From a virus: DNA of 45,274 nt. Made by a program: the position numbers and the translations under genes. The stretch lies in the IMG/VR virus record IMGVR_UViG_3300044739_000022, positions 1 to 45,274 of that record, one strand, 5' to 3'. Shown piece after piece: positions 14,622 to 37,501 of the stretch; the first letter of the stretch is position 1; each line of letters opens with the position of its first letter. The notes under the pieces are model-generated. The model was not told the origin of the DNA. It worked only from the letters and a program-made list of their open reading frames with translations, and ran no database searches.

Positions 14622-15188
14622 ATGGCTGGCAACGCGCAAATCTCGTTCATCGGCAACCTCGGGGGTGACCCCGAACTCCGCTTCACGCCGTCCGGCGCGG
14701 CGGTGGTGAACTTCAGCGTGGGCGTCGCGGAGCGCAAGAAGGACGGGGACAACTGGGTCGACGGGGAAACCACCTGGTACCGCTGCAACGCCTGGCGCAC
14801 GCTCGCGGAGAACATCGCGGAGTCCCTGACCCGAGGCGCCCGCGTGGTCGTCACTGGGACGATCAAGTCCCGTTCGTACGAGAACCGCGAGGGCGGCAAG
14901 GGTGTCTCGTGGGAGGTGGAGGTGGACGGCATCGGGCTGGACCTCCGCTTCGCCACGGCGAAGGTCCAGCGCGCGGAGCGCTCGGGCGGGGGCGCCCCGC
15001 AGGGTGGCGGTGGCTGGAACCAGGGCGGGCAGCAACGCCAGCAGGGCGGCGGCGGCCAGTACAACCAGGGTGGCCAGTACGGCGGCGGCCAACAGCGAGG
15101 CGCGGCGCCGGCCGACGACCCGTGGGGCTCCGCCCCGCAGGGTGGCGGCGGTTACCAGGGCGGCTTCACCGACGAACCGCCCTTTTAG
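14622..15188 (+). CDS. ssb: Single-stranded DNA-binding protein
   Basis: The 188-residue protein has a strong GGAGG site before ATG 14622. Residues 1-115 are the OB fold (ISFIGNLGGDPELRFT, WYRCNAWRTLAENIAESL, GARVVVTGTI). A Gly/Gln-rich flexible tail follows, ending in the acidic tip DEPPF. The tip is the usual partner-binding end of bacterial SSBs. It coats single strands in replication and cooperates with the ERF annealase two genes upstream. Confidence 0.96.
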   Translation: MAGNAQISFIGNLGGDPELRFTPSGAAVVNFSVGVAERKKDGDNWVDGETTWYRCNAWRTLAENIAESLTRGARVVVTGTIKSRSYENREGGKGVSWEVEVDGIGLDLRFATAKVQRAERSGGGAPQGGGGWNQGGQQRQQGGGGQYNQGGQYGGGQQRGAAPADDPWGSAPQGGGGYQGGFTDEPPF

Positions 15189-17925: not shown

Positions 17926-18327
17926 GTGAGTGTAACAACATCTACTGACGTTTTTTGGTCGAGTCCCCCACCGCTCGTGCTCCGAAGCCGCGAAGGTGTC
18001 CTGCTGGGTGAGTGGCCGTGCACCTTCACCGGGTGGCACCGGCATTCCGGTCACGGCTTCGCGGGCTGGGTGTACACCCTGGTTGACGACCAGGACCGCG
18101 TGGCCTACGTCGGCCAGACCGGATTGATCACCAAGCGCTTGAAGCAGCACGGCCGGACGAAGCGGTTTGCCTGGTGGTACGCCTTCGGGACGAACGACTG
18201 GCGCGCCGACGAAACGGCGCACATCGAGCGATGCCGCCCGTACCTGTTCAGCGACGGCTCGGAGTGCCGGAACCCCGGCAACTCCCGGGTGATCTTCTAC
18301 ACCGACGTGCTGGCTGGTGAGCGGTGA
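17926..18327 (+). CDS. GIY-YIG nuclease family protein
   Basis: The 133-residue product starts at GTG 17926 with GGAG upstream. The nuclease core is clear: GWVYTLVDD (residues 47-55, the GIY strand), VAYVGQTG (59-66, the YIG strand), then R71 and H75 in TKRLKQH and a E-T-A-H-I-E motif (96-101) with the metal-binding Glu. The first 30 bases are unusually AT-rich with a T6 run, unlike the rest. It could be a free-standing homing nuclease or a repair nuclease. It overlaps the replication gene start (GTGA) and sits behind an attenuator-like leader. Confidence 0.8.
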   Translation: MSVTTSTDVFWSSPPPLVLRSREGVLLGEWPCTFTGWHRHSGHGFAGWVYTLVDDQDRVAYVGQTGLITKRLKQHGRTKRFAWWYAFGTNDWRADETAHIERCRPYLFSDGSECRNPGNSRVIFYTDVLAGER

Positions 18328-19097
18328 GCATTCGACTGATGACCGACGTGTGGGACACCGCCGTCTCCCCGGCGACCACGCGCCTGGTGCTGCTTGCGCT
18401 GGCCGACCAGGCGAACGATGACGGGGTGTGCTGGCCGTACATGGCGACCATCGCGAGCCGCGCCGGGTGCGGGCTCTCGACCGCGCGCAAGGCCTGCGCC
18501 GAACTGGAGACCCAGGGCCTGCTCCGGCGCGAGTTCCGGAAGGCCGAAGACGGCGACAACGATCGCAGCATCTACGTGGTCAACGCGGAGAAGCTGGCGG
18601 ACTTGGCGGGGGCCGCTCGATCTGAGCGGAGGGCCGCCAAGAAGGAGCGAGGGGGGCCGCTCAAATCTGGCGGGGGGGCCGCTCAGATCGAGCGGCATAA
18701 CCCCCAGGTGAACCCCCAGGTAGAACCTTTAGCCGCCGCTACCGCGTCGGGAGCGCTTTTCGAGGTTCCCGAGCAGGGACGCGAAGAGGCCAAGGAGCCC
18801 AAGCCGCCGACGATCAACCAGCGGGCGAACGTCCTCGCCGGGCGCCATTACGAGCGGCTCGGGAAGATGGGCAACGTGCCCGCCTTCGCGAAGATCGTCA
18901 AGCAGGCGCTGACCGCTGGCTGGCAGGACGCCGCCGTGGACGCGGCGATGGCCTTCATCGCGGAGAACCGGTGGACGCTCACCGCCGAACGGCTCGCCAA
19001 CACGCTCAAGGGCGGCCCCAAGCCCGCTTCCCGCCCGGCCCCGGCCCGGCCCACCAACGGCGCGAAGCGCGTCGGTAACCAGATCCTGGAGTACTGA
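18324..19097 (+). CDS. Replication initiator / replisome organiser-like protein
   Basis: The 257-residue protein has an N-terminal winged helix-turn-helix (residues 5-75: SPATTRLVLLALADQAND, then Y-M-A-T-I-A-S-R-A-G-C-G-L-S-T-A-R-K-A), a low-complexity linker (95-145) and a C-terminal helical domain (160-240). This layout, next to a replicative helicase, matches helix-turn-helix replication proteins of phages that load the helicase, in the manner of lambda O or DnaD-like proteins. The linker-encoding DNA holds iteron-like repeats, see the repeat entry. Start GTG 18324 overlaps the upstream stop; ATG 18339 is an alternative. Confidence 0.65.
   Translation: MSIRLMTDVWDTAVSPATTRLVLLALADQANDDGVCWPYMATIASRAGCGLSTARKACAELETQGLLRREFRKAEDGDNDRSIYVVNAEKLADLAGAARSERRAAKKERGGPLKSGGGAAQIERHNPQVNPQVEPLAAATASGALFEVPEQGREEAKEPKPPTINQRANVLAGRHYERLGKMGNVPAFAKIVKQALTAGWQDAAVDAAMAFIAENRWTLTAERLANTLKGGPKPASRPAPARPTNGAKRVGNQILEY
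18606..18723 (+). repeat. Iteron-like repeats, candidate replication origin inside the initiator gene
   Basis: Units of the form CCGCTC-N5-GAGCGG occur at 18613-18629 and 18679-18695 (both palindromic). Weaker copies lie at about 18634-18650 and 18657-18673. The period is 21-23 bases, about two helical turns, and each unit follows a G-run. One copy (18657) is in a different reading frame, so the protein alone does not force the pattern. A direct repeat CCCCCAGGT (18701, 18713) follows. This recalls lambda, where origin iterons lie within gene O. Confidence 0.55.
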
Positions 19098-19099
19098 CC

Positions 19100-20419
19100 A
19101 TGGCACGCAACGCGCACGACGTGTTCACGGAGCGGGCCATGCTCGCCGCGATGATGTCCACGCCCGAGCAGGTGACGGCGGCCTTCCTGTCCGTGCCCAC
19201 GGAGGCGTTCTACCTGATGAAGCACCAGACGATCGCCGCGATCATCCGCGAGCTGTTGATCCGCCGGACGCCGGTGGACGCGACCACCGTGCACGCCGCG
19301 ATCCTGGACCAGGGTCTGGCCTCCCGGATCCACGCCGTGGAGCTGTTCGAGATCGTCCAGCAAGGTGCCTTCGGCGGGGTGGGCTCCGTGGCCGCGTACG
19401 CGGAGCGGCTGTGCGAGCTGTACGCCCGCCGCCGGATGGCGGAGGAGTTCGTGCGCGAGGTCCAGCACCTGGATGCCCAGTGGGAGTCCGGCGAGAGCAC
19501 GCCCGTGGCGCCGACGATCGAGCGGGTCCGGATCATGCTGGAGGACATGGCGCGGCTGGCCTCCCCGTCGGCGGAGTGGGCACCTCCGACGCTGGCCGAC
19601 CTGCTGGCGGGCGAGTCCACCTACGACTGGATCGTGCCGGGCCTGCTGGAGAAGATGGACCGCGTGATGCTGACCGGGGACGAAGGCTTCGGCAAGACGG
19701 AGCTGGTGACCCAGATCCTGTGCGCGATCGCGGCGGGCATCCACCCGTTCACCACCGAGCCGATCCAGGGCGTGGGCGAACTCCGGGTCACGGTCATGGA
19801 TTGCGAGAACAGCCCGGCGCAGTCCCGCCGCCGGTACCGCCGCATGGTCGGGCTGGTCGATTCGATGCGCGCCCAGAACGGCCTCCCGCCGGCCAGCTGG
19901 GACAAGCGGCTGTTCATCGACTTCGCGCCGGGCGGGCTCGACCTCCTGAACGGCGCGGACATGATCCGGCTGGAGCGCTTCGTCTCCGCGACGGCGCCGG
20001 ACGTGCTCGCCATCGGGCCGCTGTACAAACTCCACCGCGCGGACATGAACAACGAGGAGGCCGCGCGCCAGCTGGTCTCCCAGCTGGACCAGCTCCGCGA
20101 GCGGTACGGCGTCGCGATCATCACCGAGGCGCACGCGGGGAACTCGAAGGACTCGGAGGGTAACCGCTTCATGCGGCCCCGTGGGTCGTCGCTGTTCCTC
20201 GGGTGGCCGGAGTTCGGGCTGGGGCTCCGGCGCGACCGTGAGGACCCGGACAAGCTGGCGCAGGTGATCAGCTGGCGCGGCCACCGTGATGAGCGGAGCT
20301 GGCCGCAAGACCTTACGAAGACCCACGGCGAAGGGATCTTGCCGTGGGCGCTCGGGCCGATCTCGCTGGAGAAGGCCTACGACATGCCTACGCACTGGGA
20401 CCCGATCGGCGATCAGTAG
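19100..20419 (+). CDS. DnaB/RepA-type replicative helicase
   Basis: The 439-residue protein has a DnaB-like N-terminal helical domain (residues 5-110, ERAMLAAMMSTPEQV...TEAFYLMKHQTIAAII) and a RecA-like ATPase core with Walker A GDEGFGKTEL (about 193-202), a V-M-D-C-E-N-S Walker-B-like strand, and D-V-L-A-I-G-P-L-Y-K-L later. The core is of the AAA_25/RepA type. It would unwind the fork after loading by the helix-turn-helix protein encoded just upstream. The gene starts three bases after that gene's stop. Confidence 0.85.
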   Translation: MARNAHDVFTERAMLAAMMSTPEQVTAAFLSVPTEAFYLMKHQTIAAIIRELLIRRTPVDATTVHAAILDQGLASRIHAVELFEIVQQGAFGGVGSVAAYAERLCELYARRRMAEEFVREVQHLDAQWESGESTPVAPTIERVRIMLEDMARLASPSAEWAPPTLADLLAGESTYDWIVPGLLEKMDRVMLTGDEGFGKTELVTQILCAIAAGIHPFTTEPIQGVGELRVTVMDCENSPAQSRRRYRRMVGLVDSMRAQNGLPPASWDKRLFIDFAPGGLDLLNGADMIRLERFVSATAPDVLAIGPLYKLHRADMNNEEAARQLVSQLDQLRERYGVAIITEAHAGNSKDSEGNRFMRPRGSSLFLGWPEFGLGLRRDREDPDKLAQVISWRGHRDERSWPQDLTKTHGEGILPWALGPISLEKAYDMPTHWDPIGDQ

Positions 20420-36508: not shown

Positions 36509-37501
36509 ATGGCCCAGAGGATCTTGGACGCCACCGACCTGTTCAGCGGCGGCGGCGGCGCCTCCGAGGGGCTAAAGCAGGCGGGCTGGTGGCTCGCGTG
36601 CGCCGCGAACCACGACCCCGTCTCGGTGGCCACGCACAAGCTGAACCACCCGGACACGGATCACCGACTGAAGGACTTGAAGGAGGTCGACTGGCGGACG
36701 TTCCCGTCCACTACTGCGCTATGGGTCTCGCCGTCGTGCGTCTGGCACGCGCGCTCCGGCGGCCGGAAGCAGCTCCCGGAAGAGGTCGAGCTGCTCCGCG
36801 CCGACGAAGGCTCGATCGACCGGGCGACCGCCTTCGCCGTGATCGAAGCGGCGGAGGTCCACCGGTATCCGGTGATCTTCATCGAGAACGTCCCCGAGTT
36901 CATGGCCTGGGTGCTCTACCCGCTGTGGCTGGAGATGCTTCGGACGCTCGGGTACCACGTGGAGGTGCTAATGCTGGACGCGGCGGACTTCGGCCACGCC
37001 CAGATCCGGAAGCGCATGTTCATGGTCGCGACGTTCGACGGCCTACGGCTCGACCTCTCCATGGAGAACCTCACGAAGGGCATCCAGCCCGTGTACGCGG
37101 CGGACATCCTGGACTCGGACCCGGGCAAGCCGTTGACGCGCGAGCTGTACATCAGCCCCCAGATCGCGGAGATCCGGGAGGAGTACGTGCCGCACCTGGT
37201 CGTCTACCGCCGCCACGCGCACGCCCTGCGGGCCAGCTCGAACCGGCTGGCGACCATCACGGCCGGGGGGAACCACCACGCGGTGGCGCAGATCCGCGAC
37301 GGCGTGCGGTACCAGCGGATCATCACCGATCGGGAGTGCGCGCTGGCCCAGGGGTTCCCCGAGCACTATCAGTTCGTCGGCTCGCCGAAGGCCCGCAAGG
37401 GCGCGGCCACGGACAAGGTGGTGAAGAAGCAGATCGGCAACGCGGTGGCCGTGGGGATCGCCCGCCGGCTGGGCGCGATCGCGGCGGAGGCCTTGGCCTG
37501 A
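36509..37501 (+). CDS. Orphan DNA cytosine-5 methyltransferase
   Basis: The 330-residue protein carries the C5 motifs in order: motif I DLFSGGGGASEG (10-21), motif IV V-S-P-S-C77 (catalytic Cys; here P-S-C rather than P-P-C), motif VI E-N-V (126-128), motif VIII Q-I-R-K-R (165-169) and motif X Q-I-G-N-A-V near 313-318. No restriction partner lies beside it. A lone methyltransferase in a phage usually protects its DNA from host restriction or marks it. It has AGTAGGAG before ATG 36509. Confidence 0.9.
   Translation: MAQRILDATDLFSGGGGASEGLKQAGWWLACAANHDPVSVATHKLNHPDTDHRLKDLKEVDWRTFPSTTALWVSPSCVWHARSGGRKQLPEEVELLRADEGSIDRATAFAVIEAAEVHRYPVIFIENVPEFMAWVLYPLWLEMLRTLGYHVEVLMLDAADFGHAQIRKRMFMVATFDGLRLDLSMENLTKGIQPVYAADILDSDPGKPLTRELYISPQIAEIREEYVPHLVVYRRHAHALRASSNRLATITAGGNHHAVAQIRDGVRYQRIITDRECALAQGFPEHYQFVGSPKARKGAATDKVVKKQIGNAVAVGIARRLGAIAAEALA

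Follow-up and report, generated by a model that had tools for sequence, protein, structure and literature searches.

A probable lambda-type replication origin inside the HTH_36 O-like initiator gene of an IMG/VR phage

The replication region and the initiator protein

The sequence analyzed here, referred to below as the window, is the whole of a virus record from IMG/VR (45,274 bases, 69% GC). Its replication region includes the following genes:

14622-15188, + strand: single-strand DNA-binding protein gene (Pfam SSB, E 7e-28)
18324-19097, + strand: O-like replication initiator gene, 257 aa (HTH_36, E 4.5e-11; phrog_391, E 2.2e-27)
19100-20419, + strand: the phage's own DnaB-type helicase gene (Pfam DnaB N-terminal domain, E 2.4e-9; AAA_25, E 4.4e-28)

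The HTH_36 match covers the N-terminal part of the initiator, and the PHROG 391 profile (“replication initiation O-like”) matches its residues 1-134. HTH_36 was the sole Pfam family reported for this protein, with no match to the Phage_rep_O family (PF04492). In the AlphaFold model, a winged helix-turn-helix occupies residues 1-87 (pLDDT of about 95 for the N-terminal domain), and a helix runs on to residue 108. Residues 109-163 have no secondary structure, with the lowest confidence at 138-147, and a helical C-terminal domain spans residues 164-228. With this model, a fold search gave nothing beyond weak winged-helix hits (best E 3e-3), chiefly MarR-type and TFIIE/TFE proteins. A PDB sequence search produced nothing relevant, and a scan of genome contigs with the initiator as the query found no relative. 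The C-terminal domain displayed no detectable similarity to the C termini of lambda O and of a Klebsiella phage O, in what were thin alignments.

The helicase gene follows the initiator gene directly, as the preliminary description of this DNA had it. Its relatives in the phage collection belong mainly to Gordonia and Arthrobacter phages, with one from a Brevibacterium phage, so that the host of the window phage is likely to be an actinobacterium. The gene immediately upstream of the initiator gene (17926-18327) has a weak match to GIY-YIG endonucleases, under the curated cut-off. Right behind the helicase gene, the segment 20483-22287 carries a papain-family cysteine protease gene and a glycosyl hydrolase 25 gene, likely lysis functions adjoining the replication genes. 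A C-5 cytosine DNA methylase gene is found at 36509-37501.

Iterons in the linker of the initiator gene

The initiator gene contains four 17-bp units of the form CCGCTC-N5-GAGCGG:

18613-18629, + strand: iteron 1, CCGCTC-GATCT-GAGCGG, perfect palindrome
18634-18650, + strand: iteron 2, CCGCCA-AGAAG-GAGCGA, degenerate, 3 mismatches
18657-18673, + strand: iteron 3, CCGCTC-AAATC-TGGCGG, 2 mismatches
18679-18695, + strand: iteron 4, CCGCTC-AGATC-GAGCGG, perfect palindrome

Their starts (18613, 18634, 18657, and 18679) are 21, 23, and 22 bp apart, which confirms the four repeats every 21-23 bases that had been read from the sequence initially. The repeats correspond to residues 97-124 and hence to the linker between the helix-turn-helix and the C-terminal domain, where they had been placed. 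Iterons 1 and 4 are exact reverse complements of each other. The units occupy codon phases 1, 1, 0, and 1, the copy at 18657 being the odd one, as previously stated. The exact 12-base motif formed by the two arms is absent elsewhere in the 45-kb record, and no other 180-nt segment of the record reaches the palindrome-plus-identity score of the four units. That score was attained by 1 of 2,000 synonymous recodings that followed the codon usage of the record and by 0 of 2,000 that used the gene's own codons, in line with the earlier contention that coding alone is insufficient to explain the repeat. Loose matches to the motif (up to 3 mismatches) number 80 in the whole record versus 98 expected. 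As they are not enriched, the signal resides in the cluster, and only the cluster is taken here as evidence.

The sole close relative compared, the IMG/VR contig L001, encodes an initiator with 70% protein identity and contains four units with the identical spacing of 21, 23, and 22 bp. Iteron 1 is the same in both sequences. Iteron 2 reads CCGCCA-AGATC-GAGCGG in L001, and iteron 4 has identical arms and a centre that agrees at 1 of 5 positions. In iteron 3, a DNA difference that changes the protein (LKTSGG in L001, LKSGGG in the window) gives L001 the perfect palindrome CCGCTC-AAAAC-GAGCGG, CCGCTCAAAACGAGCGG. Overall, the palindrome arms are identical at 45 of 48 positions, the 5-base centres at 13 of 20, the bases between the units at 9 of 15, and the remaining gene at 499 of 673; the difference between the arms and the rest of the gene has a p of 0.0014. 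Among the codons that specify the same amino acid in both genes, 19 of 21 are unchanged inside the array and 98 of 157 outside it (p 0.013). Thus, the repeats are better kept at the DNA level than the rest of the gene, the outcome that had been proposed as a check. The G-runs that were said to precede each unit are missing in L001 before units 1 and 3; accordingly, they have been left outside the motif and rejected as part of the iteron unit.

Iteron arrays in the family of HTH_36 O-like initiators

To assemble a wider family set, viral contigs were scanned with the N-terminal domain, and named phages were added for comparison. Its arrays have a constant 6-N5-6 geometry, mostly repeat every 22-23 bp, and occur in several codon phases, and their arm letters vary: CCCGTG-N5-CACGGG in L017, GGTCTC-N5-GAGACC in L105 and L109, CCTGAA-N5-TTCAGG in L126, CGTCGC-N5-GCGACT in L120, and CCCGCA-N5-TGCACC in the Pseudomonas phage MD8. 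In the 34 best-scoring arrays anchored by the AACC element described below, spacings of 22 or 23 bp account for 58 of the 68, and 32 of these arrays use more than one codon phase. Accordingly, the same conservation check also held across the wider family, where the repeat geometry persists while the linker protein and the arm letters change. The array detector found none in some members, such as L111, L113, and L117, so the rule is common rather than universal.

Similarity of the helix-turn-helix domains predicts similarity of the arms (Mantel r 0.287, p 0.0075; 32 non-redundant, AACC-anchored genes), and similarity of the C-terminal domains is unrelated to it (Mantel r -0.011). With a strict palindrome cut-off, which left 14 genes, the helix-turn-helix/arm correlation was not significant. 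Natural swaps of domains point in the same direction. L105 combines a C-terminal domain like that of the window with the iteron type of L109, whose C-terminal domain is different; and L002, L003, L005, L006, and L007 share the C-terminal domain with the window and differ from it in the N-terminal domains and linker repeats. Both the correlation and the swaps would be expected of iterons that are read by the helix-turn-helix domain.

Other kinds of linker repeats were seen in the course of these scans. Shorter palindrome-like repeats of the CCGGGAAAACCCCGG type are found in L002 (5271-5345), L005 (5150-5225), and L006 (4820-4895); in L002 and L006, they recur at intervals of about 15-16 bp. A-rich stretches containing AAGAAGAC or AAAGAGAGAC come next, and judging by these repeats, the three loci apparently represent a different origin type that goes with the same C-terminal domain. 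In L011, L012, and enterobacterial loci such as L020-L037, TCA-AAATC-TGA recurs every 15-18 bp and is followed by repeats of GATCC[AG]TCA, which may be a variant form of the AACC element. In the Gordonia phage Dardanus, gp47 (L268), an initiator without detectable helix-turn-helix similarity encoded upstream of a related helicase, has linker repeats of the GTGTCGAC type at 2069-2132, with spacings of 23 and 22 bp; arrays of this intragenic kind may therefore be common among phages of actinobacteria.

A second element: the AACC array

The iterons are followed by another set of repeats:

18699-18735, + strand: AACC array (AACC at 18699, 18711, and 18724), the proposed opening or loading element

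The copies are 12-13 bp apart, and the first one begins 3 bp past iteron 4. The CCCCCAGGT direct repeat that had been noted after the units is indeed present, as the first two copies of this longer array. The array occupies the same position in L001, L105, L017, L109, and other relatives. Repeats of 10-13 bp that contain AACC also stand right after the iterons in L114, L118, L120, L126, L138, and many of the loci L148-L227. In 27 of the 34 best-scoring arrays, a gap of 2-3 bp separates the first AACC from the last palindrome; across the family, the AACC copies that follow the iterons are 10-14 bp apart. When 25 genes were picked by their iterons alone, AACC proved to be the commonest spaced 4-mer downstream; two or more spaced copies were found in 17 of them, whereas 1,000 synonymous recodings gave 5.2 such genes on average and never more than 11.

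Viral contigs were also scanned blind for the pattern AACC[AG]TCA-N(2-4)-AACC[AG]TCA-N(2-4)-AACC, which was present at 80 loci or more. Among the 80 matches listed, 56 are preceded at a short distance, on the same strand, by a frame with an O-like helix-turn-helix, where about 2.8% would be expected at random positions in those loci; 7 lie within 300 nt of a contig end, where the upstream gene could not be judged. No initiator domain was found for the remaining 17, most of which are simple repeats of AACCGT/GGAACC. Across 54 distinct arrays, the AACC copies are spread over the three codon phases (41/99/41), and 22 individual arrays have copies in each of them, so this is a DNA (or RNA) element and not a peptide. 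The window and its nearest relatives carry AACCC forms (AACCCCCAG, AACCCAAA) and the scan pattern describes the AACC[AG]TCA form; the wider statistics therefore characterize the family and, for the window itself, bear directly only on the AACC core.

The AACC array may thus represent a widespread second element of HTH_36 O-like origins, with an AACC core (often AACC[AG]TCA) in a 10-13-bp repeat set 2-3 bp from the last iteron, and read by something common to phages with differing iterons. According to this proposal, the iterons would specify the replication type and AACC would serve strand opening or helicase loading, the likely role of the array; the reader could be either a host protein that is conserved or the initiator itself, through a conserved face that acts on single strands once they are opened. 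We put the chances of the proposal, including its being previously undescribed, at about even. No description of an AACC element beside phage iterons was found in the literature searched, which covered few subscription journals and so speaks only weakly for novelty. The segment 18696-18735 has 57.5% GC, placing it among the lowest 6.5% of the 40-bp stretches of the record. This is only mildly richer in A+T than the surroundings, so one might guess that AACC acts by specific recognition and not by easy melting.

Comparison with lambda and other known systems

The closest known system is the lambda origin, with which the Stx-phage origins are grouped. It is likewise intragenic and lies between the DNA-binding and C-terminal parts of O. 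Gene O of lambda has four annotated palindromic iterons of 18 bp with a 5-base centre, spaced at 20, 24, and 23 bp, compared with 17 bp and 21, 23, and 22 bp in the window, which thus shares with lambda-type origins an iteron array in the linker and about four palindromic iterons of 17-19 bp placed 20-24 bp apart. The lambda iteron core CTC-AAAAC-GAG is also present in unit 3 of L001. Dimers of lambda O bind to the iterons, which are inverted repeats, and open an adjacent A+T-rich stretch of 40 bp (PMC5043065; PMC7466680).

The initial suggestion that the origin is kept here just as in lambda therefore stands for the location in the initiator linker and for the geometry, but not for the components. 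Lambda O belongs to Phage_rep_O (PF04492), whereas the window initiator is of the HTH_36 type. The lambda iterons are flanked by an A+T-rich tract, some 40 bp long, in which one strand carries almost all of the purines (PMC5043065); in the window, no A+T-rich, purine-asymmetric opening tract was found and the flank is the AACC array, which lambda lacks at the corresponding place. Finally, lambda recruits the host DnaB through P, whereas no gene for a P-type loader was found beside the window initiator, and 19100-20419 encodes the helicase itself. Because of the missing opening tract, the locus would be a variant that works like a lambda-type origin rather than a plain member of that type.

Repeats in the O-like gene of phage MD8 have been noted before (PMC8508860). 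Its initiator has the same domain family, and the units are spaced at 21, 23, and 22 bp with an AACC array 3 bp after them; it differs from the window in the arm letters and in the P-like gene that follows. The IMG/VR contigs L001, L105, L017, and L109 all combine the O-like domain, linker iterons, AACC at 3 bp, and a DnaB-type helicase gene next to the initiator gene; L105, L109, and L017 differ from the window in the arms, and L109 also in the C-terminal domain. The iteron plasmids RK2, P1, and F similarly have phased initiator sites beside an opening region, but the units in the window are palindromes.

Origin reading and its alternatives

The O-like profile match, the DNA conservation in L001, the family-wide geometry, and the likeness to lambda support the original reading of this locus as an origin within the initiator gene; on these sequence comparisons, the segment 18613-18735 is very probably the replication origin of the phage, of the lambda type, working by the following mechanism. 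Dimers of the N-terminal winged helix-turn-helix would bind the four hyphenated palindromes, spaced at about two helical turns, and would form a compact complex. Such a complex could strain the adjoining DNA at the AACC array, where the strands would open and the phage's own DnaB-type helicase would be loaded, probably held by the C-terminal domain of the initiator. Several points count against this reading: a GC content of 57.5% over 40 bp in a 69% GC record does not make easy melting evident, iteron 2 is a poor match, and part of the likeness between units 1, 2, and 4, which share a codon phase and an AAxxER peptide, could be protein repetition. The close comparison covers a single relative, L001, and the lack of detectable C-terminal similarity to lambda O and the non-significant 14-gene test also weigh on this side.

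Winged helix-turn-helix proteins often bind palindromes of this kind, and the initiator model weakly resembles MarR-type regulators; the palindromes might therefore be operators through which the protein represses or times its own operon, with replication starting elsewhere. However, the sites are 290 bp inside the gene, a scan for sigma-70-type promoters found no promoter-like site around them, and the intragenic position, the multi-unit array, and the AACC flank recur in many different phages, all of which makes an operator function improbable.

Even less credence can be given to the view that the repeat is a by-product of a repetitive AAxxER linker peptide and G+C-rich codon use, devoid of any function in DNA. 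Units 1, 2, and 4, in one phase, do encode AARSER, AAKKER, and AAQIER, but unit 3 is out of phase, synonymous recoding almost never restores the score, the palindromes are kept in L001 across protein-changing differences, and nearly all the family arrays scored (32 of 34) mix codon phases. Equally improbable are RNA hairpins in the initiator mRNA that would control translation or transcription past the linker: each unit could form a stem of 6 bp capped by a 5-base loop, and there is an 18-base complementarity between units 1 and 4, but hairpins would not need a spacing near two DNA helical turns, which is kept across many phages, and a terminator scan found no terminator-like site.

Implications

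The origin reading extends the lambda paradigm of an origin inside the initiator gene to a phage with helicase relatives among phages that infect actinobacteria. In the case of mycobacterial prophages, a lambda-like origin inside repA has only been suggested as one possibility, and the region examined had no repeats (PMC7157519). The family rule that emerges, a constant geometry with private arm letters that track the helix-turn-helix domain, could let origins and their specificity types be read from the sequence. As for the site of opening or loading, which is the step understood least, the AACC array offers a specific candidate that can be tested.
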